Of a stretch of 64,000 bases of DNA, positions 22,018 to 63,833 are shown piece after piece. Within the stretch, counting starts at the first letter, position 1; each line of letters opens with the position of its first letter. The stretch covers positions 5,022,001 to 5,086,000 of the forward strand of contig NZ_CP060497.1 of NCBI RefSeq assembly GCF_014334135.1, read 5' to 3'. Origin of the DNA: Olivibacter sp. SDN3. Its GTDB lineage: Bacteria; Bacteroidota; Bacteroidia; Sphingobacteriales; Sphingobacteriaceae. Below the pieces are notes generated by a model. It searched no databases. It saw only the letters and a program-made list of their open reading frames with translations, and was not told the origin of the DNA. The position numbers and the translations under genes are program-made.

Positions 22018-22018
22018 C

Positions 22019-23775: not shown

Positions 23776-23791
23776 TTCCCATAGTATTGGA

Positions 23792-25489: not shown

Positions 25490-25499
25490 AACAATGTAT

Positions 25500-28799: not shown

Positions 28800-28930
28800 A
28801 AAATGCATTCTATTGTTTGGTTTATTTCATAAAATTCTGATTATCCTTGCTATAAAACCAATAAGAACGAGGCATTTAGCATACCGAATTAATAAAATTT
28901 TCTTTGTACGAGAATTTATAATTATAAACC

Positions 28931-30580
28931 ATGAAGATCGAGCAATTAACAACAGTTCTGATAGTATTATTAACTGGGTATACGAATCAATTAAAAGCGC
29001 AAACAGAACAGCATGTACCTTATATTTCCAAAGCCTGGGTGGCCGATCAAGGAAATGGGCAATATAAAAATCCTATTTTGAATGCAGATTACTCCGATCC
29101 GGATGTTATCCGCGTAGATGACGATTTCTATATGACAACCTCAAGTTTCGATGCGATACCAGGTCTTCCAATTTTACATTCGAAGGATTTGGTGAACTGG
29201 AAAATTATCGGTCACGCTTTAAAAAGACAACAGCCTTTTGATCACTTTTCTCAAACACAACATGGAAATGGCGTATGGGCACCTTCAATACGTTTTCATG
29301 AAGGTGAATTTTACATCTATTACGGCGATCCAGATTTTGGAATCTACATGATCAAAACGAAAGACCCAGCGACAGACTGGGAAGCCCCTGTGTTGGTAGA
29401 AGCAGGAAAAGGTATGATTGATGTATGCCCTTTGTGGGATGATGATGGGCAAGCGTATATCGCTTATGCATATGCCGGTAGCCGCGCAGGCATTAAGAGT
29501 GTTATTGCAGTTAAGAAATTAAGCTCCGACGGGAGAAAAACGCTCGACGAGGGCGTTATTGTGTACGACGGACACGAAATGGATCCTACGATTGAAGGAC
29601 CTAAGTTTTACAAAAGGAACGGCTTTTACTATATCATGGCACCGGCAGGCGGTGTGTCTACCGGATGGCAGTTGACCTTACGATCGAAAAATATTTATGG
29701 GCCATATGAACGCCATGTATCTATGAAACAAGGCGATACTCCCATTAATGGCCCACACCAGGGTGGTTGGGTCGACACCCAAACTGGAGAAGATTGGTTC
29801 ATACATTTTCAAGATAAAGCTGCTTACGGCCGAGTGGTACACCTTCAACCGATGAAGTGGTTAAACGACTGGCCAATGATTGGTAAACAGATCCCGGGAA
29901 GCCAAACAGGAGAACCTGTTCTTACTTTTAAAAAGCCAAACGTTGGAAAAACACACCCCATAGAGACACCCGTTGAAAGTGACAACTTTAACGGTAAAAC
30001 CATGGGTAAGCAATGGCAATGGCAAGCGAATCCGCGTGCAACATGGTCTTTCTTATATCCCGAAAAGGGCGTACTTCGACTCTATACACAGCTAGTGGCA
30101 GACAGCGCACAGAATTTGTGGGATGTACCTCATGTGTTACTACAAAAGTTTCCGTCAGAAGAATTCACTGCTACAACCAAAGTTACGTTTCACCCAAATG
30201 AAAAATTGGAAAAAGAAAAAACTGGTTTAATAGTTATGGGACAAAGTTATGCCAATTTAGCTCTGGTCAGTGAAAAAGACGGAATGTATCTTGTTTTTGG
30301 CGAAGCTATTGACGCCCACAGAGGTGCGCCTGAGCAGGAGACTGTGCTCTCCAAATTAAACACCAACACCTTATATCTCAGGGTAACTGTTAGTAATGGG
30401 GCAAAATGCCTATTTAGCTACAGTAAAGACGGCAAAAATTTCGAGCCTGTCTACAAAGTGTTTCAGGCTACACCAGGTCAATGGATCGGTGCAAAAGTAG
30501 GCCTTTTCAGTACGCGTGGCACACAAATAAACGACTCGGGCTGGGGTGATTACGATTGGTTCAGTATAGAAAATAAATAA
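28931..30580 (+). CDS. GH43 glycosidase, exported
   Basis: A 549-residue enzyme with a signal peptide (about 1-23, ending LKAQ). Residues about 45-345 are a five-bladed beta-propeller with the GH43 set: D56 (YSDPD, base), D164 (GMIDVCP) and E222 (IEGPK, acid). Residues about 355-549 are the beta-sandwich GH43_C2-type domain. GH43 enzymes remove arabinose, xylose or galactose from side chains, so an arabinan or galactan side chain of pectin is the likely target; the exact bond is not readable. PL10 starts 3 bp after its stop. Confidence 0.93.
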   Translation: MKIEQLTTVLIVLLTGYTNQLKAQTEQHVPYISKAWVADQGNGQYKNPILNADYSDPDVIRVDDDFYMTTSSFDAIPGLPILHSKDLVNWKIIGHALKRQQPFDHFSQTQHGNGVWAPSIRFHEGEFYIYYGDPDFGIYMIKTKDPATDWEAPVLVEAGKGMIDVCPLWDDDGQAYIAYAYAGSRAGIKSVIAVKKLSSDGRKTLDEGVIVYDGHEMDPTIEGPKFYKRNGFYYIMAPAGGVSTGWQLTLRSKNIYGPYERHVSMKQGDTPINGPHQGGWVDTQTGEDWFIHFQDKAAYGRVVHLQPMKWLNDWPMIGKQIPGSQTGEPVLTFKKPNVGKTHPIETPVESDNFNGKTMGKQWQWQANPRATWSFLYPEKGVLRLYTQLVADSAQNLWDVPHVLLQKFPSEEFTATTKVTFHPNEKLEKEKTGLIVMGQSYANLALVSEKDGMYLVFGEAIDAHRGAPEQETVLSKLNTNTLYLRVTVSNGAKCLFSYSKDGKNFEPVYKVFQATPGQWIGAKVGLFSTRGTQINDSGWGDYDWFSIENK

Positions 30581-43831: not shown

Positions 43832-45532
43832 TTAATCCACTGATAGTACCTGCTTTTCTTGCATAAGCTCCTCTTTTAACAACTCATAATCAACATCTTG
43901 AACTAAATATTCATTTTGTATAGCTTGTACGGCGGCCAACGCTGCACTCTGACTTAAAATCATAAATACCGGTTCCATTCTAATGGATCCGAACGCGATA
44001 TGCGAACTTGACAAACACACTGGTACCAATAGGTTACCACACTCCTCTTTTTTCGGTAAAATTGATCTGTAAGAAATTTGGTAGGGCTTCTTGGGATGTA
44101 CACCTATATCACCTTCATTCTGCACAAAACCATCAGGCTTGATATAACGCTGTGCGTTATGAGAATCTAATGCATAAGACCCCATACCTATAGGATCTAA
44201 AATTTCCCTTTCACTGAATGTGTCATGTTCTGTCATTACATACATTCCAATCATCCGGCGTGCCTCTCTTACATATATTTGGTGCGGCCAATTGTTATTA
44301 TCTGTAAATTCGTCTTTAGCTAAGCCCCATTGATTCATTTCCTCACGAACATCCTCAGGTACTTTCGGATCATTCGCCAAAAAGTACATCAATCCTTTTT
44401 GATAATCTTCATGATGCTGAACAATCCGTTGTCTTTCCTGGTAACTAGCTTCTGGGTAGTCATAATTTTCACCGATGAAATCTGTACTGAAGGGTCCGTG
44501 GTTATTGGTATCAGTTTTTCTATTGGGAATTTTGTCAAATTTCCGGAACGTTTCCCTCCACCCCGAGGCAAATACTCTCGCCAACAATTCATAGTTTGCG
44601 GAATCATAATTTGCTGGCTTAGGAAAAGGTATACGGTTATCAGGGTGGTTACTCAAAGTCATGCGAAAACAGTAGGCTTGTAAACGATGATCGCCTTCAC
44701 CATATTTACCAGGATCTGCTGATGAAACGCCAAACAGCAGTCCGCTCGTGCTATCACCCTCAATTTTATAAGGGCTGATGTCGTGTTTAAAATAATGGTC
44801 GTGGTGCAAAACGCCCGTTTGAATGCCATTCCATTTTTCATTGTACTCACTATTTGCTTCACGTCCTACATGGTAACTAACACCTGACGCGGCCATTAAA
44901 TCACCTTCATAGCTAGCATCTATAAACATTTTGGCTTTGAAGATTTTGCCATTTAAGGTTTTGAAAGCTGTAATCCTGTTACCATCTTTCTCCACGCCTT
45001 TTTCGCGATCAAGCCACTCATCACGATACACTTTTATTTCATTTTCGTTCACGAAATCTTCAAACACCTGTTCAGCCACATGGGGTTCGAAAATCCACAT
45101 CGTACGGGCATCTCCATCAATCGCAGGTGTACCTTGCCCCATATTGCCGTATTCTTCACGCTTTTCCCACGTCCAGGCTGTACTATCCTGATAATGCAGA
45201 TAAACACGATGATAAAATTCTCGGGAAAGACCACCTATCACCGACTTATCACCTGTATCAGTAAAACCGAGACCGCCGGAAGATAAGCCTCCCAGATGGA
45301 TATCTGGCGAAACCACCAACACGGTTTTACCCGATCTTTTAACTTGAACAGCCGCTGTTACCGCTGCCGATGTACCACCGTAAATAATTACATCCGCTTC
45401 GTGAATTTCACCTTTGTTTTCTGATCTACATGAAAACAAGCAGAGACAGATAACTAAACACAGAAATAAATAGGCTTCACGACAAGCACAACTGTTATAG
45501 GTACGGCTTATCAAAAAAAATTGATTGATCAT
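43832..45532 (-). CDS. FAD-dependent oxidoreductase lipoprotein (PF12831 type), copy 2
   Basis: A 566-residue flavoprotein with a lipobox signal (FSC near residue 35). The FAD-binding start is VIIYGGTSAAVTAAV, followed by HLGGLSSGGLGFTD, the FAD_oxidored family hallmark. The C-terminal block NLLVPVCLSSSHIAFGSIRMEP matches its neighbour. The substrate is unknown; members are often listed as putative xanthan lyase without support. It is the paralogue of the next gene, follows it by 26 bp and is the last gene of the - arm of the second locus. Confidence 0.9.
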   Translation of the reverse strand: MINQFFLISRTYNSCACREAYLFLCLVICLCLFSCRSENKGEIHEADVIIYGGTSAAVTAAVQVKRSGKTVLVVSPDIHLGGLSSGGLGFTDTGDKSVIGGLSREFYHRVYLHYQDSTAWTWEKREEYGNMGQGTPAIDGDARTMWIFEPHVAEQVFEDFVNENEIKVYRDEWLDREKGVEKDGNRITAFKTLNGKIFKAKMFIDASYEGDLMAASGVSYHVGREANSEYNEKWNGIQTGVLHHDHYFKHDISPYKIEGDSTSGLLFGVSSADPGKYGEGDHRLQAYCFRMTLSNHPDNRIPFPKPANYDSANYELLARVFASGWRETFRKFDKIPNRKTDTNNHGPFSTDFIGENYDYPEASYQERQRIVQHHEDYQKGLMYFLANDPKVPEDVREEMNQWGLAKDEFTDNNNWPHQIYVREARRMIGMYVMTEHDTFSEREILDPIGMGSYALDSHNAQRYIKPDGFVQNEGDIGVHPKKPYQISYRSILPKKEECGNLLVPVCLSSSHIAFGSIRMEPVFMILSQSAALAAVQAIQNEYLVQDVDYELLKEELMQEKQVLSVD

Positions 45533-45558
45533 AAATAAAGATTTTTAAAAATAGCTAA

Positions 45559-47553
45559 CTAATCGTTTCCTTTTGGTATAAATAGTAAAGAATTTACTGT
45601 AATTATCCCGTCTGCATCTTCGTTACTTACTTCGATAAAAGATTGTTTTCCATTAATCTGGTAATTACCTAAAGGCAACCATTCTCCAGAAGTCTGCCCT
45701 TCAATCTGCACACTTGCCAGGTCTAACTCTTTTGTCACAACTTGATCTCCATTGTAGATTTTGTAGGTAACCACATTGCTTGTACCCTCAAGTTTAGGAA
45801 AATAGGTATAGATATCATAATATCCCGCTTCTAAATCTATTAATTTGAAGTTCGCCGTACTAGGTTGATCTGCCTTATCAGCCTTTTTATAGGCCAGCCC
45901 AAATCCACCTTTGGTTTCCTGCTCCCACGTGCCCGTATAAGTTACTGATTTTTCATCCTGACTGTCAACCCACCTATCAGGTACCCTTCCATCGCCTTTA
46001 GGATTTTGTATCCATTTTTCCTTTATTTTTGATATTTGAACCTGTTGAACGGTACTTTTTGCATCAATAGCTTCACACGCAGCGAAAGCAGCAGATTGTG
46101 CTAATACCATAAATACTGGTTCCATTCTTATGGAGCCGTAAGCAATGTGGCTAGCGGATAAACATACCGGCACCAACAAGTTGGTACATTCATTTGCTTT
46201 TGGTATAATGGCGCCATAAGCAATAGGAAAAGGAGGGAAACCTCCCACTTCCACATTCCCTTCGTTCTTTACCATGCCATTGACCACTAAACGGTCGCAG
46301 TTATGCGAATCCATTGTATAAGCCGCATAGCCTATATCATCGTCAACAACTGTTCTTCCCTGGCAATGATGTTGTGTCATCACCGTTTCACCAATCATAC
46401 GTCTCGATTCACGTATGTACAATTGCGGAGTCCAGTGATTATTCTCTAGATATTCATCTTTTGGATACCCCCATTTTTGCATTTCTTCACGTATAAAGGC
46501 TGGAACGGAAGGATCATTGCCAACAAAATACAATAAACCTTTCGTATAATCTTCGTGGTTTTTAATAATTTCTTGCCGTTTTCTAAAATCGGCTTCTGGA
46601 TATTCCCAGTTCATGCCAATCATATCGGTAGAAAAACCATTTCGATTGTTAATATCTGTTTTACCGTTCGGCATCAAACTCCATATAAACACATCATTGA
46701 GTCCTTTCCATGGCCTTTTTTCTTTTAGCCGTTTCAATAGCTCATACTTAGTCGGATCATAATTGGTTGGTTTTTCTATTGGCAAACGATTTTCTGGAAC
46801 ATTCGTCAAGGCAATCCGATAATTGTACGCCTGTACTTTTTGATCACCTGTGCCATCAGGCTGTAGTGTATGTGCATTGATTCCCCACAACAAACCACTG
46901 CTTGAGTCGCCTGGAATAACGTAAGGATCGATGCCATCGGGAAACTGATGCCCATCCATTAATTGTACACCATTTAGCGTTTCATCGTACACCTGATTAT
47001 CTTCACGTCCCACATGATAGGAAACACCGGCTTTAGCCATGAGATCTCCTTCATATGAGCAGTCAAGAAAAATTTTGGCACTTACACTTAAAGGCTCTTC
47101 ATTTGCTTCGGAAACTGCTTGAACCTCTATTTTAGCGATTTGCGTTTCTTTTTTATGTACTGCTATGAGTGTTTTTTCAAAAAGCACATCGATATCAATA
47201 GCCTGGATATAACTTTGAAAGATACTATCGGCCACTTTCGGTTCAAAAATCCATTGTTCCAGTGTGCCATAATGCTGACCTATTTTTCTGTAGAAGTCTA
47301 GAGCCAAACCCTTTACCACATACTTATTACCTATATCCGTATAGCCCAAACCGCCAGCGCTCATACCTCCGAATCGTTTTCCAGGATCTATCAGCACAAC
47401 AGACTTACCTGCTTTTGCCGCCGTATAAGCAGCTATAACTCCTGCTGATGTTGCACCATAGATACAGAGGTCATATTCGGTTGTTTGCTTTGTTTTTGCT
47501 GAAATGGTTGACAACAAGCAGCATAATAAACTATAGACAATAATTGATTTCAT
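45559..47553 (-). CDS. FAD-dependent oxidoreductase (PF12831 type), copy 1, with C-terminal golvesin-like domain
   Basis: A 664-residue exported flavoprotein (start at MKSIIVYSL, 47553; the frame is open upstream into the susD gene, but that part has no signal peptide). FAD block LCIYGATSAGVIAAYTA, then RFGGMSAGGLGYTD. It shares long blocks with copy 2 (VSYHVGRE, FSTDMIG, IRESRRMIGE, SHIAYGSIRMEPVF). An extra ~120-residue beta domain at the C-terminus (YTGTWEQETKGGFG, then YYDIYTYFP) resembles golvesin/Xly-type sugar-binding modules. It follows susD by 37 bp. Confidence 0.9.
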   Translation of the reverse strand: MKSIIVYSLLCCLLSTISAKTKQTTEYDLCIYGATSAGVIAAYTAAKAGKSVVLIDPGKRFGGMSAGGLGYTDIGNKYVVKGLALDFYRKIGQHYGTLEQWIFEPKVADSIFQSYIQAIDIDVLFEKTLIAVHKKETQIAKIEVQAVSEANEEPLSVSAKIFLDCSYEGDLMAKAGVSYHVGREDNQVYDETLNGVQLMDGHQFPDGIDPYVIPGDSSSGLLWGINAHTLQPDGTGDQKVQAYNYRIALTNVPENRLPIEKPTNYDPTKYELLKRLKEKRPWKGLNDVFIWSLMPNGKTDINNRNGFSTDMIGMNWEYPEADFRKRQEIIKNHEDYTKGLLYFVGNDPSVPAFIREEMQKWGYPKDEYLENNHWTPQLYIRESRRMIGETVMTQHHCQGRTVVDDDIGYAAYTMDSHNCDRLVVNGMVKNEGNVEVGGFPPFPIAYGAIIPKANECTNLLVPVCLSASHIAYGSIRMEPVFMVLAQSAAFAACEAIDAKSTVQQVQISKIKEKWIQNPKGDGRVPDRWVDSQDEKSVTYTGTWEQETKGGFGLAYKKADKADQPSTANFKLIDLEAGYYDIYTYFPKLEGTSNVVTYKIYNGDQVVTKELDLASVQIEGQTSGEWLPLGNYQINGKQSFIEVSNEDADGIITVNSLLFIPKGND

Positions 47554-47590
47554 TTTTTTCTTAATAATCAACATATCAAAACATTTTTTG

Positions 47591-49054
47591 TTAATATCCA
47601 GGATTTTGATCGCTTGCATCCAGTGCATTATTGTTGTCCATCTCCACTCTCGGAATTGGCCACAAAAACTGACTGTCACTCACAGCTCTTCCCTTCGCTT
47701 CCTGTATAATAGCCTTAACCCGCTCGTTACCAAGCCTTTTTAAATCGTTCCACCGTTTACCTTCCACCATGAACTCATACGCTCTTTCTTCAAATACGGC
47801 CTCCCGGAAACCAACTTGATCCAAGCCCGTTAAATCAACGGTGGCATCGGCAATATGAATAGCCTTGCCATATGCCCTCCGCCTTACCTGATTAATGGCT
47901 TCGTAGGCTTCCGGTGTTGGGCCACCTGCTGCTTGACTTGCCGATTCGGCATAGATTAATAGTACATCTGCGTAGCGTAATACAGGCATATCGTTTGCAC
48001 TGGCATCTGAAGCAACCGATGAATAATCTTTAAATTTCCTAAATTGATAAGGTTCATTGGATGGTAATTGTACTGTAGCCCCGCTATTGCGGTGGATATA
48101 GGAGTCATATAAATTGAACTCCTTACGCAGATCTTCATCCGACCAGTCGGCAATTAAAGGAAAAATCTCCCTTGCGTAAATTGTTCTAAAACCATACGGA
48201 GCATACAAAGTATTCTCCCCATGGATATAAACGAGGTATTCAAACCCTTGCCCACCAGCCGAGGAATATTTAAAGGAGAAAACTTCTTCTGAACTGTTGA
48301 TCACTCCAGCCCCAAAAAGATTTTCAAAATCTTCTACTTCGACTACCGGTACCAATTGATACCTGCCCGCATCAATTACTTCGCCCGAAAGGTCACGGGC
48401 CATTTCCCAGTCCTCCAACGTGAGGTACACATATGCCAGCAGTGTTTTTGCCGCTAAATTATTTGGTCGCCCCGCAATGGAGGGTACATTAGGCAGATCG
48501 TTGGCAGCACTTTCTAAATCTGCTATAATGAATTGATATATTTCTTCTGTACTGCTGCGGGGCAGATCCGTAGGATCATCGATGGATTGCCTCAAAGGTA
48601 CTCCTCCAAAATTTCTGACCAAGTCGAAATAGGCCACCGCCCGAAGAAATCTGGCCTCGGCAAGCAGTCCGGCCTTATCATTTTCGTCCATTTCTATAGT
48701 CGGCACTTTATCTAAGACCGTATTTGCCCGCAAAATAGCTCTATAAGCCAGCGTCCACATACTTTCTGCCCGGGCAATATTTGCGCCATCCAGACCATTA
48801 TATTCACTTACCGGGGCAAAAGAACCTCTGCCATTGGCATAATCGGAGCACGATTCTGTAAGTAACATATAAAAGCCTCCATAGTAAGACAATTCACGGA
48901 AAGGTTCATAAATAGCATTGACGGCAGCTTCCGCATCCTGTGCCGTTTGATAAAAAATCTCTTCTGACAGGCGATCGCTCGGCACTTCTTCCAAAGTTTT
49001 GCTGCAGCCTGCAAAGAAAAGAATAGATAGGTATAAATATAGTCTTGTTTTCAT
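47591..49054 (-). CDS. SusD/RagB family lipoprotein (second locus, - arm)
   Basis: A 487-residue lipoprotein if it starts at the second in-frame ATG (49054), which gives a short signal ending FFAGC; the frame also opens at 49081. SusD blocks are clear: DRLSEEIFYQTAQDAEAAVNAIY, AEARFLRAVAYFDLVRNFG-type region, and the C-terminal IPRVEMDNNNALDQNPGY-like ending. It is the surface ligand binder for the STN-SusC encoded before it. The ligand is unknown. Confidence 0.94.
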   Translation of the reverse strand: MKTRLYLYLSILFFAGCSKTLEEVPSDRLSEEIFYQTAQDAEAAVNAIYEPFRELSYYGGFYMLLTESCSDYANGRGSFAPVSEYNGLDGANIARAESMWTLAYRAILRANTVLDKVPTIEMDENDKAGLLAEARFLRAVAYFDLVRNFGGVPLRQSIDDPTDLPRSSTEEIYQFIIADLESAANDLPNVPSIAGRPNNLAAKTLLAYVYLTLEDWEMARDLSGEVIDAGRYQLVPVVEVEDFENLFGAGVINSSEEVFSFKYSSAGGQGFEYLVYIHGENTLYAPYGFRTIYAREIFPLIADWSDEDLRKEFNLYDSYIHRNSGATVQLPSNEPYQFRKFKDYSSVASDASANDMPVLRYADVLLIYAESASQAAGGPTPEAYEAINQVRRRAYGKAIHIADATVDLTGLDQVGFREAVFEERAYEFMVEGKRWNDLKRLGNERVKAIIQEAKGRAVSDSQFLWPIPRVEMDNNNALDASDQNPGY

Positions 49055-52484: not shown

Positions 52485-53642
52485 CTAATAAAAGTAAACA
52501 CCTTTCTCGCTGAGTCGATATTTTATATTCAAACTTGCTTCTAAATCATTTAAAAACCCTTCCAAATCCTGTTTTTCAAGTAAACCGGTTATTGTTTTGG
52601 ATTTTATGTTGTCATTATCAAAAAAAACTGGTAGATCAAACCATCTGTAAATGATATTACCGATCTCAAGTAACGATCTGTTTCTAAAATAACACACACC
52701 TTCTTTCCAGCTCAGTACTTCACTTGCGTCAAAACTTTCTTTTGAGAGCATGTTTTTATCATAAACACCTTTGTATCCCGGTATGAGTTCGACTACAGCC
52801 CCACCCGAGGTTTCCATTTGCACCTTTCCTTCCACGAGCGCGGTGGTAACAGCCTGCTGGTCATAGGCTGATAAATTAAATTTTGTGCCAAGCACACGAA
52901 TTGTACTCTCAGCTGTATGCACAATAAATGGTTTTTCCACATCGGAGGCAATCTCAAAATAAGCTTCACCCTCTAGGTACACCTCTCTTGACTCGGCTAA
53001 AAAGGCCATGGGAAATTTTAATCGGGAAGACGAATTGAGCCAAACTTTTGTTCCGTCGGCCAACGTAAGCTTATAATCTTTTGTAGGTGGAACAACCAAT
53101 GTATTGATCTTTTCCAAGGAATTAGCCAAGTCTCTATATATCAGCTCTCCATTTTCTCTTTTCACCGTCTGTCCGGCAACACTTATCGTATTACGTGTAT
53201 TTTCTAAATCCACTTCTTCCTCTCCTTCTCCTACCAAAAGTTGAACTTCTCTTTTTTTTCCGTCAAACGCCGCAATTTTAGTATTTTCTTCCTGTTTCTT
53301 GGAATCATTTATAGTATTGAACAGCTGAAAAATGTAGGCAGCTACACCGAATAACAGTAAAATTGCTGCGGCATGAGTCAGTCCCATTTTTCTTTTATGA
53401 CCACTAGCATTACTGCGTAACTTACGTTTTACGCTGGTCAGATCTTTTTTCACATCAATGTTCATGACGAAAGCCTCGAGATCGATACGATCCCCCCGTA
53501 TTTGAAGACGCTGCCATAACTTACGACTCTCCTCTTCTTGTAATAGCTGTTCCTGTAACCACCGCTCATTCTCTTCGGAGATTACCCCAGCTATTTTCTC
53601 TATATATAGTTGACGTATACGTTCTTCAGTTGCCATCATCAT
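52485..53642 (-). CDS. FecR-family anti-sigma factor
   Basis: A 385-residue inner-membrane regulator. The first ~85 residues are cytoplasmic and would hold the sigma factor; one membrane segment lies at about 88-108; the FecR domain (about 190-290, with GTKVWLNSSSRLKFP and VEKPFIVHTAE) is periplasmic; and the C-terminal ~70 residues are DUF4974-like. It is encoded 26 bp after the sigma factor and 99 bp before the STN-susC. Three adjacent ATGs make the exact start uncertain. Confidence 0.94.
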   Translation of the reverse strand: MMMATEERIRQLYIEKIAGVISEENERWLQEQLLQEEESRKLWQRLQIRGDRIDLEAFVMNIDVKKDLTSVKRKLRSNASGHKRKMGLTHAAAILLLFGVAAYIFQLFNTINDSKKQEENTKIAAFDGKKREVQLLVGEGEEEVDLENTRNTISVAGQTVKRENGELIYRDLANSLEKINTLVVPPTKDYKLTLADGTKVWLNSSSRLKFPMAFLAESREVYLEGEAYFEIASDVEKPFIVHTAESTIRVLGTKFNLSAYDQQAVTTALVEGKVQMETSGGAVVELIPGYKGVYDKNMLSKESFDASEVLSWKEGVCYFRNRSLLEIGNIIYRWFDLPVFFDNDNIKSKTITGLLEKQDLEGFLNDLEASLNIKYRLSEKGVYFY

Positions 53643-53668: not shown

Positions 53669-54220
53669 TTAATTTTTTTTTAATTTTTCAACTTTTTTTC
53701 GGAGATTCTTTAACCCTATTTTTAAATGTGTTTTTAAGGAGTTAATACTGATCCCCATTGTATCGGCTACCTCCCGATATTTTTTATCTTGCAGGTACAC
53801 CAAACTTATGGCTTCACGTCTTTGTGTAGGAAGTTCATTCAAGTTTGCTTCTAATGCATTATACACCTTTTCTAGTGATCGCATATCGTCTTCCTGTTCC
53901 ACTGCCGCATCATACTTTTGACAATCGTGATAATTTAGGTGTTTTCGTAACTTGACCTCCCGATTTCTTACATAATTTAAGCATTTATTATGTATAGCTT
54001 TATAAAGATAATTTTTCACATCACCTTCTAATTTATCCAGACGTCCTTTTTCCCATAATTCTATAAATAAACCTTGTACCATATCTTTGGCTTCTTCTTC
54101 TTCTCTAACAATGAAGTAGGCATATGCACACATCACTTTATAATATCGCTGAAATAAGACCTCAAATGCATCGATATTTCGACCATGATCCTTTTTTAGT
54201 GATTTTGAGTTAATGTGCAT
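53669..54220 (-). CDS. FecI-like ECF sigma factor
   Basis: A 183-residue sigma-70 family protein with region 2 (about 22-90, DMVQGLFIELWEKG) and region 4 (about 122-175, LPTQRREAISLVYLQDKKYREVA). It has no region 3 and matches the ECF family paired with FecR in Bacteroidota. It should be kept inactive by the FecR protein encoded next and then drive the SusC/SusD/oxidoreductase genes. The start is the ATG at 54220. Confidence 0.94.
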   Translation of the reverse strand: MHINSKSLKKDHGRNIDAFEVLFQRYYKVMCAYAYFIVREEEEAKDMVQGLFIELWEKGRLDKLEGDVKNYLYKAIHNKCLNYVRNREVKLRKHLNYHDCQKYDAAVEQEDDMRSLEKVYNALEANLNELPTQRREAISLVYLQDKKYREVADTMGISINSLKTHLKIGLKNLRKKVEKLKKN

Positions 54221-54552: not shown

Positions 54553-54576
54553 GTGACGAATATAAAACTTAAGGCC

Positions 54577-57500
54577 ATGAGATCTGAGCTATTCCGAAAA
54601 CCAATCTACATTTTGCTTTATCTGCTCCCCGTCCTATTTTTTGGAAAACTATATGCGCAAACGCTAACTATTCAGGGTACGGTAATGGGCAAAGACACAC
54701 GCCCCTTGCCTGGGGTCACCGTGCAAGATACCATCAATAACATTGTTGCAAGCACCGATGAGCAAGGACGTTTCCGTATCAGCACACCTGCTTCAGCCAC
54801 ATTGTCTTTTTCACTTGTGGGTTATATATCACAAGAGGTCGTGGTTAATAACCAAACATCTCTGACAGTTACCCTCTTGGAAGATATCTCTGCATTAGAC
54901 GAAGTTGTAGTTATCGGCTACGGATCGATGAAAAAATCATCCGTCACAGCCGCAGTAACAAAACTGGAAAATAAAAACCTGGAACAGATTCCGCTTGCTC
55001 GGCCGGAAACGGCTCTTCAGGGCAGGCTTGCAGGCGTCAATATTTCACAAACCCGTAGCGCTCCGGGATCAGCCCCACTCATTCGCATCAGAGGTGGTTC
55101 CGGTTCCATTGACGCCGGTAACGACCCCTTGATTGTCATCGATGGCTTTCCTGGTGGTTCCTTCGCCAATGTCAATATGAACGACGTGGAATCCATTGAA
55201 GTACTAAAAGATGCTTCTTCCGCCGCTATTTATGGCTCAAGAGGCGCAGGAGGCGTTGTTATTGTGACGACGAAAAGAGGAAAAACCGGCCAGCCTATTC
55301 TGAATATTAATGTCAATGGTGGAATATCCAATGCCATTGGTCATAAAGATTGGTTAGATAAGGATGCATATTATGCCTATGCCGTTAAATATCAAAACAG
55401 GGAATATGCTTATGTAGGAGGAGATACAAGTATACCGATATGGGGAGATGATCGGAGACCCGCACAATACCAGGTGAGTGATGCACTACGGAATAACGCC
55501 AATACCAATTGGCAGGATGCATTGTTATCACCTGCGCCTTTCCAAAACTATGACCTCTCTGTGAGTGGTGGTACGGAAAATGTTAAATACTATGCCTCGG
55601 CTATTGTAAAAGATGTACAGGGTACGCTAAAAAACACCTGGTTCAAAAGCTATGGCGCCCGGGCAAATGTGGATGTTAAAGTGAATGAAAAAATCAATAT
55701 GGGTTTTATGATCAATCCCAATTTTACCCGTAACCGTTTGTCGCCCCACTCAATGATCGACTTGGTAAAGTACCCCCCTTTCGTACCCGTACAGAATCCC
55801 GACGGAAGCTATCCACGGGCGCGTGACTATTGGGGACTAGTGGTGTCGGGTCAGAATAATCCCATGGCCTTTATGGAGGGGTCTTTTTATTATGATGATG
55901 CCATGACCACTATTGGAGAAATGTTTGCCAGTATAGATCTTGCAGAAGGACTGTCTTTCAAAACCTCGGTAGGTACAACAATTGAATACAATACTTCCGA
56001 CAGATTCCGCACATCCTGGGGTTCAACCAATGAGCTGTCTACGGGAACCGCTGCAGATGCCAGACATATTAATCTTTTAAATGAAAATGTGCTCAGCTAC
56101 AATAAAGATTTCGGCGATCATCACTTTGATGCGATTCTAGGTGCGTCCTATCAAAAAACCAACTCCCGTTCTTCTGCCATGGGTGCGGTGCCCGGATCAT
56201 TCAATAATGATATTATCCAAACCTTGAATAATGCAATCATTGACCCTGCCCAAACCAGAACCTCCAAGACACAATGGGGATTGGTGTCTTACTTCTCAAG
56301 GATACATTATGCTTACAAAGATAGGTATTTATTCTCCGCTTCAATTCGAACAGATGCGTCGTCGCGTTTTGGACCCGATAACAAATGGGGTTGGTTCCCA
56401 TCGGCTTCTGCTGCATGGCGTATTTCTGAGGAGGGCTTTATGAGTAATGTGACCACCATAAGTGATCTCAAGCTACGTGCAAGCTATGGTTCAACAGGAA
56501 ATTTCAATATTGGAAATTTCGACTATCTGGGACAGATCGGAAGTGTTTACTATTCACCGGGCAATGAACTGGTAAACGCACAGGCGCAGACAACGCTGGG
56601 AAATCCTTCCTTAAGTTGGGAAAAAACACAGGAATATGACATTGGTTTAGATCTCGGCCTTTTTCAGAACCGCTTAAATATAATTGTTGACCTTTATCAG
56701 AAGAATACTTCCAGCCTACTCTATAATGTATCGATACCGGCTATCACCGGATTCACGAGCTGGCTTACTAATATTGGCGAAATCCGCAATGAAGGTATCG
56801 AACTTGAAATTTCCTCACAAAACCTACAGGGGCCCTTTACTTGGAACACTTCGTTCAATCTTGCCCGAAACAGAAATAAAGTAGTTGACCTCGGGGGACT
56901 GGAAGAACGTATTTATACGGATAGGTTTGGGATGAGCTGGCTTTTACGTTTAGGAGAACCGATGTTCTCATACTATGGCTACAATGCTATCGGTGTATTA
57001 TCAGATCAGGCTGATGTAGAGAATAATCCCATTTTATCTGGATCAAAACCAGGAAATCCAATTTATGAGGACGTCAATAACGATGGAAGAATTACGCCCG
57101 ATGACCGTATCACTTTAGGACACTACATGCCTAAGATGATATTAGGCATGGTGAACGATTTTTCCTGGAAAAATTTTGACTTAAGTGTTGCAATACAAGC
57201 GTCACTTGGCGCAAAAACCTACAATTTTGAAAATCAGTACTACCAAGGCAATGTGCTTGGGGCTATGCGACGTTCGTTGGTGGAAGGACAATGGTGGTCA
57301 GCAGATGAAGCCGGAGATGGGAGAATGCCTGCAGCCGCGCTTAGCCAACTTGAATATCAGGCAAACTCCAGCATTTACGTAGAAAATGCTTCTTTCTTAT
57401 CTATCCGAAACTTAAACTTTGGGTACACACTCCCCGAACATTTATCAAAAAAACTCCGTATGAGAAAATGCAGGTTCTATACCTCTATTAATAACTTACT

Positions 57501-57648
57501 AATGGTGACAGATAAAAATTTCCATGGTTATAACCCAGAGGGCTATACGGCCGGTGAAATTGATGGTATTAACAGTACTCCCGGTTATAACAGCGGATCA
57601 GAACCAATCAACCGGATTTATACATTTGGAATAAACGTCAACTTCTAA
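54577..57648 (+). CDS. SusC/RagA TonB-dependent transporter (second locus, + arm)
   Basis: A 1023-residue outer-membrane importer starting at ATG 54577 (a GTG at 54553 is in frame but would put 8 extra residues before the signal peptide). Signal about 1-28, carboxypeptidase-regulatory-like domain about 32-110, TonB-box region DEVVVIGYGSMKKSSVT, plug with VIDGFPGGSFANVNMND and IYGSRGAGGVV, barrel ending GINVNF. No STN domain, unlike the SusC on the - arm. It is followed 11 bp later by its susD partner. Confidence 0.96.
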   Translation: MRSELFRKPIYILLYLLPVLFFGKLYAQTLTIQGTVMGKDTRPLPGVTVQDTINNIVASTDEQGRFRISTPASATLSFSLVGYISQEVVVNNQTSLTVTLLEDISALDEVVVIGYGSMKKSSVTAAVTKLENKNLEQIPLARPETALQGRLAGVNISQTRSAPGSAPLIRIRGGSGSIDAGNDPLIVIDGFPGGSFANVNMNDVESIEVLKDASSAAIYGSRGAGGVVIVTTKRGKTGQPILNINVNGGISNAIGHKDWLDKDAYYAYAVKYQNREYAYVGGDTSIPIWGDDRRPAQYQVSDALRNNANTNWQDALLSPAPFQNYDLSVSGGTENVKYYASAIVKDVQGTLKNTWFKSYGARANVDVKVNEKINMGFMINPNFTRNRLSPHSMIDLVKYPPFVPVQNPDGSYPRARDYWGLVVSGQNNPMAFMEGSFYYDDAMTTIGEMFASIDLAEGLSFKTSVGTTIEYNTSDRFRTSWGSTNELSTGTAADARHINLLNENVLSYNKDFGDHHFDAILGASYQKTNSRSSAMGAVPGSFNNDIIQTLNNAIIDPAQTRTSKTQWGLVSYFSRIHYAYKDRYLFSASIRTDASSRFGPDNKWGWFPSASAAWRISEEGFMSNVTTISDLKLRASYGSTGNFNIGNFDYLGQIGSVYYSPGNELVNAQAQTTLGNPSLSWEKTQEYDIGLDLGLFQNRLNIIVDLYQKNTSSLLYNVSIPAITGFTSWLTNIGEIRNEGIELEISSQNLQGPFTWNTSFNLARNRNKVVDLGGLEERIYTDRFGMSWLLRLGEPMFSYYGYNAIGVLSDQADVENNPILSGSKPGNPIYEDVNNDGRITPDDRITLGHYMPKMILGMVNDFSWKNFDLSVAIQASLGAKTYNFENQYYQGNVLGAMRRSLVEGQWWSADEAGDGRMPAAALSQLEYQANSSIYVENASFLSIRNLNFGYTLPEHLSKKLRMRKCRFYTSINNLLMVTDKNFHGYNPEGYTAGEIDGINSTPGYNSGSEPINRIYTFGINVNF

Positions 57649-57659: not shown

Positions 57660-59132
57660 ATGAAAAAGTTACGCAATACATACCTGGGATTATTCCTACT
57701 ATTTTGTGGATGTCACGACAACTTACTGAATCCAACCCCGGAATCCATTTTAACAGAAACAAACTATTATAATACCTCAAAAGACATCGACTTGGCTGTA
57801 TTAGGTATTTATAATAGCTATCAAAGTAGAAAGCCAACAGATTACCGCATTCTGGAAGTCCCTACAGATAATCTTTACCTTGCAAGCAACACCTTGATCG
57901 AGGGCACCCCGGAAATGGATATGCTGGCAGTCAACGCAACAAACCCACTGATCGCCAACTTTTGGGAAGCTACCTATAACGGGATTTTTCTGGCGAATGC
58001 CGTATTGACAAATATCGACCGCCCTACAGACTATCAGGGAGAAGATCGAGCGCAATATGAAGGTGAAGCAAGGTTTATGCGGGCGCTATATTATTTTGAT
58101 CTGGTCAGGCTATTTGGCGATGTACCTTTGGTAACAGACATTTTATCCGTTGAAGAAGCCGTAGATATTGGCAGAGCAGATGCGCAGGATATATTCTCTT
58201 TAGTGATTGCAGATCTCGAAACGGCTATTAACCTGTTACCCAATAAACAAGCGATTGAAAACGGAAGAACGAATAAAGCCGCTGCTTTGGCACTCCTGAT
58301 CAAAGTTTATGTTTACCGACAAGACTGGGACAACGCTAATGTCAAGCTGGAAGAATTTTTTGGCACTTTTGGTTCAACTTTCTCCTTGGTAGAGGACTTT
58401 GCATCCTTATGGCAGATTGCCACGGAAAATAATGAGGAAACCCTTTTTTCTTTAAATTATATAGATGGTTCAAATGGACATAGTTTATCGACTGATTTCC
58501 TGCCAAACTCAGGGGTAATCGGCATTGCTAGTCGCGGTAACGAAATTGCCTTACCTTCATGGAATCTACATAAAAAATACCATCAACTTGATTCCCGCAA
58601 AGACGTCACCATAACCGAATGGTGGATTCCGCCCAATACACCGAACGTCCCCGCCATATGGTATCCCTACGTAAATAAATATGCCGTAGCACATACACAA
58701 GGCCAGTCCGGCTTGGATATACCTATTATCCGCTATGCCGATGTACTTCTCCTGCAGGCAGAAACAGCCTACCATTTAGGGCAATTGCCTGTTGCCTTAG
58801 AAGCCTTGAACACGGTGCGGGAAAGGGCTTTTGGTAATGATGAACATGATTATACCATGGCAGATATTACCTCAAAAAGCGATTTTATAGCACTCTTATT
58901 TTTAGAAAGACAATTGGAGTTCGCTTATGAGAACGAAAGATGGTTCGACTTAAAAAGGTCGGGTCTTTTTCTGGAAGTGATGCAGGAAGAAGAACGTTTA
59001 TTCAATAATGCTAACCAAAGCCCGGTAACCGTTAGCCTTAATCCACAAGCCTATATGACGCTCTTTCCTATCCCACAACGGCAAATCGAGCAGTCTAACG
59101 AGGGTGTTTTAGTTCAAAATGAAGGTTATTAA
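57660..59132 (+). CDS. SusD/RagB family lipoprotein (second locus, + arm)
   Basis: A 490-residue surface lipoprotein; lipobox FCGC (Cys near residue 18). SusD blocks: ILTETNYYNTSKDIDLAVLGIYN, then GEARFMRALYYFDLVRLFGD (about 135-155), and the ending LFPIPQRQIEQSNEGVLVQN. The mature part is typical in length. It pairs with the SusC just before it and opens a tight run with the transporter and enzymes behind it (17-bp gap). Confidence 0.95.
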   Translation: MKKLRNTYLGLFLLFCGCHDNLLNPTPESILTETNYYNTSKDIDLAVLGIYNSYQSRKPTDYRILEVPTDNLYLASNTLIEGTPEMDMLAVNATNPLIANFWEATYNGIFLANAVLTNIDRPTDYQGEDRAQYEGEARFMRALYYFDLVRLFGDVPLVTDILSVEEAVDIGRADAQDIFSLVIADLETAINLLPNKQAIENGRTNKAAALALLIKVYVYRQDWDNANVKLEEFFGTFGSTFSLVEDFASLWQIATENNEETLFSLNYIDGSNGHSLSTDFLPNSGVIGIASRGNEIALPSWNLHKKYHQLDSRKDVTITEWWIPPNTPNVPAIWYPYVNKYAVAHTQGQSGLDIPIIRYADVLLLQAETAYHLGQLPVALEALNTVRERAFGNDEHDYTMADITSKSDFIALLFLERQLEFAYENERWFDLKRSGLFLEVMQEEERLFNNANQSPVTVSLNPQAYMTLFPIPQRQIEQSNEGVLVQNEGY

Positions 59133-59149: not shown

Positions 59150-60415
59150 ATGAATGAAACAACAAAAAATGAAATTAAACACACTATGACACCGGATAAG
59201 TCGAAATCCAATACCAAGCATACCGCCCAGCTTTGGTTAAGATCACTCGGCCCCGGACTTGTTACTGCTGCTCTGGTGTTTGGCCCTAGTAAAATGACAA
59301 TCACATCAAAATTGGGTGCTGACTATGGCTTTCAATTACTATGGATCGTCGTGATAGCCACGTTTTTTATGATCATATTCACAGGAATGACAAATCGCAT
59401 AGGCTTATCAACGACCAAATCATTATTACATATCATCCGTGAACGATGGGGCAAAGGCATATCCGTCGCCGTTGGACTCGGTGTTTTTTTTGTCGCAACT
59501 TCCTTTCAGTCTGGAAATGCTGTGGGTGTTGGCATTTCCATAGCAGAAATAAATGGTACTTCTGCCACGCCGTGGATTATATTGTTTACGATTATCGGCA
59601 TCGGATTGCTTTTTCTGAAAGACCTTTACAAGGTATTGGAAAAGCTGATGATTGTCATGATTGTGCTTATGTTATTCGCGTTTGTCACAACGCTGTTTTT
59701 CATAAAGCCCGATATCACTGGTATCGTTGACGGTTTCATCCCACGGATTCCGTCGGAATCGGTTGGATTGGTCATTGCTTTCTTCGCTTCGTGCTTTTCA
59801 ATCGTTGGGGCATTCTACCAGGCCTATCTTGTGCAGGAAAAAAGAAAACTACGTACAAGTCCTGATCAGCATGGCAACAGCAATATCATCGGCATCCTAC
59901 TACTCGGCTTTATGAGTGCCATGGTCATGATTGCCGCAGCTGCGGTGTTGCACGCCGACGGAATTACCGTAACGAATGCTTTGGATATGGCTAAAGCTTT
60001 AGAACCTATTTTTGGTGGATACGCCTCTTATATTTTTCTTTTGGGACTATTTGGCGCTTCTTTCTCTTCGCTGATTGGAAATGCCACAATCGGCGGAACG
60101 CTTTTAGGAGACGCTTTTGGTATTAGTCGGGCACTGGACACCAAGGTCATCCGTTTTTTTATCGCCTTGGTCATGGTTATCGGAAGTGTTATTGCCATTG
60201 TATTTGGCAAGATGCCGCTGGAGCTGATTGTCATGGCGCAAAGTGTAACCATCTTCCTAGTCCCATTCATTGGTATAGCAATATATCTGATTTCCAGTGA
60301 CCCACGGATTATGGGATATCAAGTCAATAACACGGTTACAAAAATTTGGGGAATAATTGGATTAATGATCCTTATATTATTAGCAGTCAGAAATTTACAA
60401 GAATTATTTTTTTAA
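59150..60415 (+). CDS. Nramp-fold transporter lacking canonical metal-site residues
   Basis: A 421-residue inner-membrane protein with about 11 membrane segments and the Nramp (SLC11) start SLGPGLVTAAL. In metal-transporting members, TM1 has DPGN; here residues 45-48 are GPSK. The TM6 Met-Pro-His site is also absent (GAFYQAY at about 220-226). So classic Mn/Fe transport is unlikely, and the substrate may be another cation or an organic solute. It sits between susD and four catabolic enzymes with 17-bp gaps, where an inner-membrane carrier for the locus substrate would be expected. Confidence 0.88.
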   Translation: MNETTKNEIKHTMTPDKSKSNTKHTAQLWLRSLGPGLVTAALVFGPSKMTITSKLGADYGFQLLWIVVIATFFMIIFTGMTNRIGLSTTKSLLHIIRERWGKGISVAVGLGVFFVATSFQSGNAVGVGISIAEINGTSATPWIILFTIIGIGLLFLKDLYKVLEKLMIVMIVLMLFAFVTTLFFIKPDITGIVDGFIPRIPSESVGLVIAFFASCFSIVGAFYQAYLVQEKRKLRTSPDQHGNSNIIGILLLGFMSAMVMIAAAAVLHADGITVTNALDMAKALEPIFGGYASYIFLLGLFGASFSSLIGNATIGGTLLGDAFGISRALDTKVIRFFIALVMVIGSVIAIVFGKMPLELIVMAQSVTIFLVPFIGIAIYLISSDPRIMGYQVNNTVTKIWGIIGLMILILLAVRNLQELFF

Positions 60416-60432: not shown

Positions 60433-61449
60433 ATGTCAGATTTAATGCAATTAAGTCAACAATCATATACTCCTTCGGAGGATTTGTTACAAGATATTAC
60501 TAAAATCGATGGCGACATCCTGTTACTGGGTGTTGGCGGTAAAATGGGCCCCAGCATGGCTAAATTAGCAAAACAGGCTATTGACCATACGGGCCAACAA
60601 AAACGTGTTATTGGTGTTTCCAGATTTTCTGAACCGTCTGCACAAAAAGATTTAAAGGCCGCGGGTATAGAAACCATTGCAGCCGACTTACTAGATGAAA
60701 AACAATTAGCTTCTTTGCCCGATGCCAAGAACGTCATTTTCCTAGCCGGGCAGAAATTTGGCACGACGGGCAATGAATCCTTTACATGGGCTATGAATAC
60801 CTATTTACCTGGGCGCGTTGCCGAACGTTATCGAGATGCCAACATCGTAGCTTTTTCTACTGGAAATGTATACCCCTTCTCTACAGTGGTTAGAGGTGGA
60901 GCCTGTGAAACAGACGTTCCCGAACCGATAGGAGAATACGGACAATCTTGTCTTGGTAGAGAACGTTTGTTTCAATATTTTTCCACTAAATATCAAATAC
61001 CTACCTTGATTTACCGGCTTAATTATGCTATCGACCTACACTATGGTGTGTTGATGGAAGTTGCTAAAATGGTACAGGAACAAAAGTCTATTGATCTCTC
61101 TATGGGAAATGTAAATGTGATTTGGCAAGCGGATGCCAACGAAATCGCCTTGCGCTCCCTCCTTCATTGCGAAGTACCTGCAAAAATATTGAATATAACC
61201 GGACCCGAAACGGTTTCGGTGAGATGGTTAGCCAATCAATTTGGATTATTATTCGGCAAAGATCCACAATTTATCAACGAAGAGCGTCCTACAGCTCTTT
61301 TAAGTAATGCCGCTCAAGCCCATCAATTATTTGGTTATCCAAAGGTTACCCTAAAACAAATGATCTCACTCACCGCCGAATGGCTGAAAGATGGGAAGAA
61401 CACCGTCCGTAAACCTACACATTTTCAGGAGAGAACAGGGAAATTCTAA
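60433..61449 (+). CDS. NAD-dependent epimerase/dehydratase-like (extended SDR) protein
   Basis: A 338-residue cytoplasmic protein, starting at ATG 60433 (the frame stays open upstream into the transporter gene). The nucleotide-binding loop GVGGKMG is at 33-39 and the active-site Ser is S142 (FSTGNVY). The YxxxK motif of SDR enzymes reads Y169-GQS-C173, that is without the lysine, so activity may differ from normal epimerases. It is 17 bp after the transporter and 16 bp before the DapA-like gene. Confidence 0.85.
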   Translation: MSDLMQLSQQSYTPSEDLLQDITKIDGDILLLGVGGKMGPSMAKLAKQAIDHTGQQKRVIGVSRFSEPSAQKDLKAAGIETIAADLLDEKQLASLPDAKNVIFLAGQKFGTTGNESFTWAMNTYLPGRVAERYRDANIVAFSTGNVYPFSTVVRGGACETDVPEPIGEYGQSCLGRERLFQYFSTKYQIPTLIYRLNYAIDLHYGVLMEVAKMVQEQKSIDLSMGNVNVIWQADANEIALRSLLHCEVPAKILNITGPETVSVRWLANQFGLLFGKDPQFINEERPTALLSNAAQAHQLFGYPKVTLKQMISLTAEWLKDGKNTVRKPTHFQERTGKF

Positions 61450-61465: not shown

Positions 61466-62545
61466 ATGAACAAGCAAGAACTAGCGCCTGATAAGAAAAA
61501 AAAATTACTGGAAGGGACAGTTATCCCTGCGCATCCACTTGCCTTAGACGCCGACAGGAAGTTGGATGAAAAACGTCAACGTCAATTAACGGCTTACTAT
61601 CTTGCAACCGGCGCCGGGGGAATAGCTATAGGCGTACATAGCACGCAATTCGCTATACGGGATCCAAAAATCAACCTATATGAACGCGTATTGGAATTAG
61701 CTGCGGATGAGATCGGATTAAAAGTGGTGGATGCGCTGTTCTTAAAGGTTGCCGGTATTTGTGGAACAACAACACAGGCCTTAAAGGAAGCAGCCATTGC
61801 CCGTAAATATGGATATGATTTAGGACTGGTAAGCTTAGCCGGCTTAAATAGCTTGTCGGAACAAGAACTTATTGAGCATATAAAAAGGATAGCGGAAGTA
61901 ATACCCATCTTTGGCTTTTACCTTCAACCCAGTGTGGGTGGGCGAATTCTAAGTTATGATTTTTGGTTAAAATTCGCTGAAATACGTAATGTGCATGCCA
62001 TAAAGGTTGCATCTTTTAATCGTTATCAAACCTTAGACGTTGTACGGGCAGTTTGTCATTCCAGTCGCCCGCAAGATATCGCGTTATATACCGGAAATGA
62101 CGATAACATTGTTGCCGATTTATTAACATCCTACACCTTTCCCATAATGGGCAAAAATATTACCAAACAATTTGTAGGGGGCTTACTAGGACATTGGGCG
62201 GTTTGGACACAAAAGGCAGTGGAACTGCTTCAAGAAGTTAAACAATGTAAGACAAACGGATATCAGAATGTGGCTCAGCTGTTAACCAAAGGAACGCAGA
62301 TAACCGATATGAATGCTGCCATTTTTGATCCTGCTCATGATTTTCATGGTTGTATTCCCGGGATACACGAAGTGTTACGCAAACAAGGTTTACTAAAAGG
62401 TAGATGGTGTTTAGATGTTTCAGAGAACTTATCCGAAGGCCAATTAGCAGAAATCGATCGTGTCTGTAAGGCTTACCCACAATTGACCGATGATGCTTTC
62501 GTGGAGAAATTTCTATCGACAAACCCAACTGATTACGATGAATAA
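61466..62545 (+). CDS. Dihydrodipicolinate synthase-family (DapA-like) lyase/aldolase
   Basis: A 359-residue class I aldolase-type TIM barrel, longer than DapA (about 290). The Schiff-base lysine is K180 (HAIKVASFN) and the partner Tyr is Y152 (FGFYLQP). Family members act on pyruvate-linked sugar acids (KDG aldolase, KDO/sialate lyases, dehydratases) as well as in lysine synthesis; the context here is catabolic. The start is the ATG at 61466, with a short A-rich leader. Its stop overlaps the next gene by 8 bp. Confidence 0.9.
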   Translation: MNKQELAPDKKKKLLEGTVIPAHPLALDADRKLDEKRQRQLTAYYLATGAGGIAIGVHSTQFAIRDPKINLYERVLELAADEIGLKVVDALFLKVAGICGTTTQALKEAAIARKYGYDLGLVSLAGLNSLSEQELIEHIKRIAEVIPIFGFYLQPSVGGRILSYDFWLKFAEIRNVHAIKVASFNRYQTLDVVRAVCHSSRPQDIALYTGNDDNIVADLLTSYTFPIMGKNITKQFVGGLLGHWAVWTQKAVELLQEVKQCKTNGYQNVAQLLTKGTQITDMNAAIFDPAHDFHGCIPGIHEVLRKQGLLKGRWCLDVSENLSEGQLAEIDRVCKAYPQLTDDAFVEKFLSTNPTDYDE

Positions 62546-63833
62546 ACCATTAATTGATATTGAAGATAGCGCGTCAAGTTTTGAGCAGGAGAAATTAATA
62601 CGTTCTTTCGGATTCAAAGGAAATTACCTCACAGCATTATGGCAGGTAGCAAGCCAATTAACAAGTGCCAACGGTTACACAGGCCTCGGTTTGTCCACAC
62701 AGAGTGTGTTATACAGTGACGCTAGTCTCTTCGCTAAGCATACTGAAACTGCCGGAAACTCGTTAATGTATAAATTAACTCAGGAATCTTTAAGTGTCAT
62801 CGAAAAGACGCTATTTTTTGATCCTATTCATTTACAGGAACAAATATTACCTCAGATCACGGCCATAGGCAAACGGCTAACCAATAAAGATGACTTACAT
62901 ATTAACTTTATGCTGAATGCTTTGGTCAGTATAGATCATGCAGCGTGGCTGGTATACGCCGGTGAAAATCAACTCACAACTTTCAATCAGCTTCTTCCCG
63001 ACGCCTATCAATCTTCACTTTCCTATCGCAATAACAGGCTTGCCATAGCTTATCAAATTCCCTACAATATGCCTATAGACGATGTCAAACAGGCTGCCAA
63101 ACAAGGTTATTTTGTTTTCAAAATTAAAACAGGTTTCCCCGGAGATCAGGAACAGATGCTTCAGCGGGACTCGGAAAGATTATTACAGATCCACGAGGTC
63201 TTAAGGCACTGCCAAACTCCCTATACTTCTGATGGCAAAATACGGTATACCATGGATGCAAACGGGCGGTATGAAAAGAAGGAAACCTTACTGCGCTATT
63301 TAGATTATGCCGAAAATATCGGAGCCAGGCAACAAATTTTATTTTATGAGGAACCTTTTACCGAAACAAATGAAGAAGATATCTCTGATCTGGAAATTCG
63401 CATTGCCGGCGACGAAAGTATAGTTGATGAAAAAAGCGCTTATCGTCGGATAGAGCAAGGTTACCAAACTTTTATATTGAAAGGAATAGCTAAAACACTA
63501 AGCTTATCCATTAAAATAGCCAAAATCGCACATGAACGAAATATTCCTTGTGCATTTTCTGACTTAACGGTGAACCCTATTTTGGTTGACTGGCATAAAA
63601 ACCTGGTTTGCAGGTACAGGCCTTTCCCTGATATTGGCATGGGATTGATAGAAACCAATGGCCAGCAAAACTATAAAAATTGGGAGCGTATGTGCAGCTA
63701 CCATCCGCTCTGCGGGAAGAGTTGGACAAGTGAGAAAAACGGTGTTTTTATATTGGACGATGATTATTATGAAAACAGCGGTGGTATTTTTAAAGAATCC
63801 GACCATTATCAAGAACATTTTACCAAAAGATAA
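62538..63833 (+). CDS. Enolase-superfamily enzyme (mandelate racemase/muconate-lactonizing-like)
   Basis: A 431-residue enzyme starting at ATG 62538, overlapping the end of the DapA-like gene by 8 bp. The barrel shows the K195-x-K197 pair (FKIKTG), metal ligands D240 (DANG), E271/E272 (YEEPF) and D292 (AGDES), and a second-side lysine K315 (ILKG), an arrangement closest to the muconate-lactonizing subgroup. Such enzymes remove an alpha proton from a carboxylate and then dehydrate, racemise or cycloisomerise. A sugar acid is the likely substrate class. Confidence 0.88.
   Translation: MNKPLIDIEDSASSFEQEKLIRSFGFKGNYLTALWQVASQLTSANGYTGLGLSTQSVLYSDASLFAKHTETAGNSLMYKLTQESLSVIEKTLFFDPIHLQEQILPQITAIGKRLTNKDDLHINFMLNALVSIDHAAWLVYAGENQLTTFNQLLPDAYQSSLSYRNNRLAIAYQIPYNMPIDDVKQAAKQGYFVFKIKTGFPGDQEQMLQRDSERLLQIHEVLRHCQTPYTSDGKIRYTMDANGRYEKKETLLRYLDYAENIGARQQILFYEEPFTETNEEDISDLEIRIAGDESIVDEKSAYRRIEQGYQTFILKGIAKTLSLSIKIAKIAHERNIPCAFSDLTVNPILVDWHKNLVCRYRPFPDIGMGLIETNGQQNYKNWERMCSYHPLCGKSWTSEKNGVFILDDDYYENSGGIFKESDHYQEHFTKR

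Follow-up and report, generated by a model that had tools for sequence, protein, structure and literature searches.

The Nramp-related protein NR (421 aa; 59150..60415, plus strand), a member of the GPSK clade of the PF01566 family, probably serves as the inner-membrane importer for the organic substrate, probably a sugar acid, of a saccharide-catabolic operon in the Bacteroidota. It is encoded in a 64,000 nucleotide stretch of Olivibacter sp. SDN3 DNA, here termed the window. A first-pass annotation of this DNA had proposed a changed, perhaps organic, substrate for the protein, and the comparative evidence, comprising the loss of the metal site, a fixed catabolic operon, an exchange of transporters in other phyla and the precedent of PxpT, argues for this proposal. 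Loss of the DPGN and MPH motifs has already been described for Nramp-related proteins and is not unique to NR; what is new is the GPSK clade, together with its fixed operon and the evidence for transporter exchange.

The NR protein and its predicted fold

The NR open reading frame is uninterrupted, with no internal stop codons, and the encoded protein belongs to the Nramp family (Pfam PF01566, 227.5 bits over residues 54-394, cut-off 29.8). The first-pass description of an intact 421-residue protein of the Nramp fold is borne out by these data. NR also passes the broad NCBIfam naming model NF037982 (89.6 against a cut-off of 50), by which it would be labelled a divalent metal transporter, and fails the MntH and nramp subfamily cut-offs (118 versus 430 and 46.5 versus 272.5 bits, respectively). 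In an AlphaFold2 (AF2) model built from 59 orthologs (pLDDT 84, pTM 0.82), TM1 is broken at residues 44-45 and TM6 at residues 216-217, as expected for a LeuT-fold site. The top ranks in Foldseek and VIA-align comparisons of this model are all Nramps, with Z scores of 46.6 to DraNramp (8e60) and 45.8-46.2 to EleNRMT (7qia). The structure prediction suggested in the first-pass annotation accordingly gives an Nramp fold, which is intact in the model.

The former metal site and proton pathway

Using the residue numbering of DraNramp as reference, two independent alignments (phmmer and MAFFT L-INS-i) place G45-P46-S47-K48 of NR (59282..59293, plus strand) at the TM1 site D56-P57-G58-N59, with D56 replaced by G45 and N59 by K48. 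The earlier reading of GPSK in place of DPGN was therefore exact. In TM6, the alignments and the AF2 model place S214-C-F-S217-I-V219 (59789..59806, plus strand) at A227-T-V-M230-P-H232, with A227 replaced by S214, M230 by S217 and H232 by V219. The loss of the Met/His site had been correctly recognised, but the segment assigned to it, GAFYQAY (residues 220-226), lies 3-6 residues too far downstream, the site being SCFSIV. The acids of the proton pathway are likewise replaced: E124 by F113 and, in the aligned TM3 segment Q120-x-G-N123 (59507..59518, plus strand), D131 by Q120 and E134 by N123. In TM9, I334 occupies the position of R352, while R353 is retained as R335 (R/K at this position). 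NR shares its fold and Pfam family with the canonical Nramp/MntH protein DraNramp, but is only ~20% identical to it and lacks DPGN, A-x-x-M-P-H and the canonical set of TM3/TM9 proton residues.

The possibility, raised at the outset, that the metal residues had been shifted yet were still present was pursued in the alignments and the model, in which the positions of TM1 and TM6 are unambiguous, and is rejected. Throughout the GPSK clade the alignment instead gives Gly for the Asp, Ser for the Met and Lys for the Asn, with no acidic and no Met ligands at the metal-site positions and a Lys added. We propose that this site may form a polar, non-acidic pocket suited to an organic, probably anionic, molecule.

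The operon around NR in the window

The gene order in the window is SusC-SusD-NR-EPI-DHD-MR/MLE. Upstream of NR, a SusC/RagA TonB-dependent outer-membrane transporter (54553..57648, plus strand; NCBIfam TIGR04056, 838.9 bits) and a SusD-like outer-membrane lipoprotein (57660..59132, plus strand; Pfam SusD_RagB, 110.5 bits) are encoded. NR is followed by the gene for an NAD(P)-epimerase-like enzyme, EPI (60433..61449, plus strand; Pfam Epimerase, 30.5 bits), the open reading frame of which opens at 60346 and the start of which, judged by ortholog length, is likely at 60433. The next gene codes for a DHDPS-family lyase/dehydratase, DHD (61466..62545, plus strand; Pfam DHDPS, 33.2 bits; open reading frame from 61391, likely start 61466), and is followed by that for an enolase-superfamily (MR/MLE) enzyme resembling acid-sugar dehydratases (62538..63833, plus strand; Pfam MR_MLE_C, 41.2 bits; open reading frame from 62490, likely start 62538). 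Divergent from SusC is a candidate regulator, which from its sequence and position we take to be an ECF-sigma-like gene (53669..54220, minus strand), and the adjoining gene (52485..53642, minus strand) is presumably a FecR-like anti-sigma gene; both names are drawn from family knowledge. Past the end of the window, Gfo/Idh, GSDH-cytochrome c and GMC genes are found, and then NagB, NagA and MFS genes on the opposite strand.

The Schiff-base Lys205 and Tyr177 of DHD are invariant. DHD is remote from all named members of its family, its best PDB match being N-acetylneuraminate lyase with just 34 bits. A sialic-acid (nan) operon was considered as a model and rejected; given this low DHD score and the SusD score of 88, far below the NanU cut-off of 425, it is no more than a loose analogy. 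The chitin-oxidation (ong) pathway was also set aside, since it has different enzymes and an inner-membrane carrier from the SSS family (PMC9537276). In EPI, Tyr198 is invariant and the nucleotide-binding motif reads GxGGKxGP, with Cys202 at the usual position of the YxxxK lysine in the window protein; from these sequence features the active site appears to be of an altered short-chain-dehydrogenase type.

Conservation of the GPSK clade and its operon

When 84,980 genomes were scanned with a TM8 pattern, which is independent of TM1 and TM6, as the seed, 213 loci were obtained, and the best 80 were kept. All 80 are from Bacteroidota, show 52-67% identity to NR and read GPSK. Residues 44-48 of NR, along with many other columns, are invariant in all 59 aligned orthologs. 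The invariance of GPSK in these best 80 of 213 orthologous loci suggests that it is a selected state rather than the product of decay, and the stop-free reading frame and the residues that are invariant across orthologs rule out a pseudogene. Stop codons in two loci (L084 and L093), which gave the appearance of broken genes, stem from tblastn ranges that overran the normal stop, and both open reading frames are full-length.

Among 81 loci (the best 80 of 213 plus the window), EPI is found near NR in 77 and DHD in 72, almost always in the order NR-EPI-DHD, in keeping with the initial placement of NR inside a catabolic operon. A GSDH quinoprotein fused to cytochrome c is encoded in 52 of these 81 loci, SusC in 49, SusD in 45, a large beta-propeller in 30, a BNR4 protein in 26, GH20 in 14 and an enolase-superfamily (MR/MLE) enzyme in 12. 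A common order is SusC-SusD-BNR4-GSDH-NR-EPI-DHD-c6. By hydropathy, NR is the sole polytopic protein of the operon in 76 of the same 81 loci. No publication joining an Nramp protein, the DHDPS family and SusD in such an operon was found in a literature search. In many loci, a secreted beta-propeller of ~650 aa, c6, is encoded 3' of DHD (e.g. L127, 11301-13370). Searches with c6 returned no Pfam families and no useful PDB matches; it is a candidate extracellular enzyme of the pathway.

The loss of all classical functional residues would fit a decayed or non-transporting relative, for instance a sensor. Given the many columns that are invariant in the 59 orthologs, the fixed place in the operon and a predicted fold that is intact, with TM1 and TM6 broken, such a reading is extremely unlikely.

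Exchange of the transporter outside the Bacteroidota

Plasmids from other phyla encode DHD homologs with 46-62% identity, making EPI-DHD a cross-phylum pathway. The EPI-DHD pair is located beside a carbohydrate ABC importer in Paenibacillus and Streptomyces, beside other ABC systems in Tistrella and Sulfitobacter, beside an MFS carrier in Rhodococcus, and in Nitratireductor beside a tripartite tricarboxylate transporter and a mandelate-racemase-family gene. Both enzymes are HMM-confirmed in five loci (Paenibacillus, Mesobacillus, Tistrella, Nitratireductor and Sulfitobacter). The ORF caller recovered EPI alone in Streptomyces and DHD alone in Rhodococcus, the partners being taken from annotation or tblastn, while it recovered neither in Aquisphaera, where the pair is deduced from tblastn and annotation. 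In Paenibacillus, Mesobacillus and Streptomyces, a beta-propeller of the c6 type is again encoded next to EPI-DHD (HMM check). In seven of the eight plasmid records, to which this search was confined, an NR homolog is absent; that of Mesobacillus encodes one elsewhere, no closer to NR than other members of the family are. Since the same EPI-DHD pair is served by carbohydrate and carboxylate importers elsewhere, NR appears to fill the place of these transporters, and this comparison of gene neighbourhoods is the strongest single argument that the substrate of NR would be organic.

Phylogeny and related clades

In a midpoint-rooted tree of 91 family members, the long branches of which leave the root and the deepest joins insecure, the GPSK proteins form one clade (100/99), nested in a clade of GPSK, GPGS and GPGN proteins (100/99). 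Canonical DPGN (100/100), DxxG/NRMT (100/98), GPGT (100/99) and GTGS (100/100) proteins fall in separate clades. The phylogeny called for in the first-pass annotation thus sets the GPSK proteins apart from both the DPGN and the DxxG/NRMT groups. NRMT proteins (Mg2+) are marked by DxxG in TM1 and TxxA/T in TM6, and the plant NRAT proteins (Al3+) by DxxN in TM1 and AxxT in TM6 (PMC8806188). With GPSK and SCFS at these positions and a place outside the DxxG clade, NR agrees with neither. EleNRMT resembles NR in its Nramp fold, in the absence of a canonical metal motif and in missing most proton-pathway residues, but it retains the Asp of TM1 (DxxG) and a Glu in TM3 and belongs to the separate DxxG clade.

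As a PF01566 protein that has lost the metal motif and the proton residues, NR falls within the non-canonical, paraphyletic Nramp-related proteins as defined in the accessible part of the BfraNramp preprint (PMC12873925). According to that part of the preprint, of the groups without DPGN/MPH only those that contain MntG and NRMT have been characterised at all; like NR these groups lack the metal or proton motif, but the operon, the substrate and the GPSK subgroup are not discussed there. A 2026 study models the Nramp-related proteins of its alignment as "likely metal transporters" (PMC13060092).

Genes of the GPGT clade directly adjoin pxpA/pxpB/pxpC in Bacteroidota (L184-L190) and hyuA/hyuB in haloarchaea (L058, L145 and L147), by which the 5-oxoproline/hydantoin link of GPGT proteins is extended to two more groups. 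Growth on 5-oxoproline requires PxpT in C. glutamicum, and the same need is reported for PxpT/YcsG proteins encoded in pxp operons (PMC13274462). YcsG/MntG of B. subtilis has, however, been reported to raise cellular Mn and argued to be an Mn importer (PMC10448178), so that a catabolic operon context is also compatible with metal transport. The GPGT clade is here equated with the PxpT/YcsG type by its pxpABC adjacency rather than by the YcsG/PxpT sequences. NR is similar to this type in being an Nramp-family carrier encoded in a catabolic operon, and the pxpABC-adjacent GPGT proteins likewise lack DPGN/MPH. That NR is itself a PxpT-type 5-oxoproline transporter would be consistent with the shared Pfam family and with the presence of the pxpABC-adjacent clade in the same phylum, but is very improbable indeed: GPSK/SCFS stands against GPGT/TTVV, the two clades are separate with 100/99 support each, and pxpABC genes were not recognised beside NR in the GPSK loci, where different enzymes, EPI and DHD, are the fixed neighbours.

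Haloarchaeal GPGS members are located near heparinase and Gfo/Idh genes, and a rhizobial GPGN member is found in a LacI-DHDPS-Nramp locus. Members of the GTGS clade (L198, 7443-8717; L200, 7299-8519) follow genes for a PfkB kinase and a KDPG aldolase or lie near GH20 and a NagB-like gene, and this is possibly another organic-acid clade.

Co-occurrence with DHD and canonical MntH

Across 100 relatives, a close NR homolog is present in 13 and DHD in exactly the same 13, while the other 87 have neither. The two genes are ~130 kb apart in one of the genomes (G044), which suggests that the link between NR and DHD is not only physical. In a set of 296 genomes across the phylum, close NR homologs are encoded, besides the window genome, in G248, G252 and G261, all with DHD; G110 in this set encodes a distant DHD (36% identical) and no close NR. 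Canonical MntH is kept by 10 of the 13 relatives that carry NR, which argues against NR as a general replacement for MntH. In the window's own genome canonical MntH was sought and not found. The only other PF01566 protein above the cut-off in that genome (G000:C1:5266235-5267218, L002; 62.6 bits) is very divergent and has a GPGF motif.

These distributions bear on whether NR continues to import a divalent metal (Mn or Mg) through a rebuilt site and is kept in the operon to provide enzymes of the pathway, e.g. the enolase-superfamily dehydratase, with that metal. The family takes its name from metal transport and NR passes NF037982, YcsG/MntG is a non-canonical member in a catabolic operon with a reported effect on Mn, and the window genome is without canonical MntH, all of which would suit a metal importer. 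Such a role is nonetheless quite unlikely, as the NR site has a Lys and no acidic or Met ligand, and D56G alone abolishes Mn transport by DraNramp in a deep mutational study (PMC13060092). Retention of MntH in most NR-bearing relatives, the scarcity of the enolase-like gene in the 81 loci and the pairing of the same enzymes with sugar or organic-acid transporters elsewhere also speak against it. Transport of a metal chelate (a metal-sugar-acid complex), or exchange of an organic anion through export or antiport of a pathway product, would bring the Nramp ancestry and the Mn role claimed for YcsG into line with the organic contexts, and the direction of transport cannot be read from sequence. 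This alternative is rather improbable in view of the 76 of 81 operons (best 80 of 213 plus the window) that encode no other polytopic protein to import the substrate. Even when taken together, the metal readings of NR are unlikely.

Proposed role of NR

The reading preferred here is that NR imports the organic substrate of the operon, and, by analogy, the best reading of its mode of action is that it would work in the manner of the related PxpT clade with 5-oxoproline. SusC/SusD would carry the substrate through the outer membrane, and periplasmic enzymes, including the glucose/sorbosone-type quinoprotein dehydrogenase with its cytochrome c domain, would convert it, probably to a sugar acid. 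NR would then move the organic product of the periplasmic steps across the inner membrane, and EPI, the Schiff-base enzyme DHD and, in some loci, the enolase-superfamily dehydratase would break it down. Enzymes of the DHDPS family and the enolase superfamily usually act on sugar acids. Because of these usual substrates, the quinoprotein aldose-type dehydrogenase often encoded just upstream of NR, the tricarboxylate transporter at the homologous Nitratireductor locus and the suitability of Lys48 for a carboxylate, the substrate is most likely of the sugar-acid class; both this class and the direction of import are probable. In some loci, neighbouring GH20, NagA/NagB and BNR genes instead suggest amino sugars or their derivatives, as against plain aldonates.

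A direct pairing of Lys48 with a substrate carboxylate could be suggested at most tentatively. Three loci with the same triad operon (L047, L181 and L182) read GPGS, with Ser at position 48, rather than GPSK, so that Lys48 would seem to be clade-specific and inessential to the function of the operon, and the notion of a carboxylate anchor is weakened.

The chances appear evenly balanced that the whole Bacteroidota clade transports sugar acids, or another saccharide-derived anion, on an Nramp (SLC11) fold by way of the Lys-containing former metal site. If so, and counting in PxpT as well as the GTGS and haloarchaeal clades, organic substrates would be common, perhaps ancestral, among "Nramp-related" proteins annotated as divalent-metal transporters. 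If this clade does carry organic anions, a single fold would have seen its substrate class switch between metal ions and organic molecules, in one direction or the other. The disagreement on whether YcsG handles manganese or 5-oxoproline would then become a general question, for which NR, with every metal ligand lost, is a clean test case. NR would also supply the missing inner-membrane step of a widespread SusCD operon.

Other loci in the window

A pectin/uronate-type cluster occupies positions 13767-30580, with genes for an MFS protein, the glucuronate isomerase UxaC, a mannitol-dehydrogenase family protein, GH88, GH28 and GH43. At 43832-47679, FAD_oxidored (PF12831) proteins are encoded by two adjacent genes downstream of another SusC-like gene on the minus strand; one of the pair carries a Golvesin_C domain.
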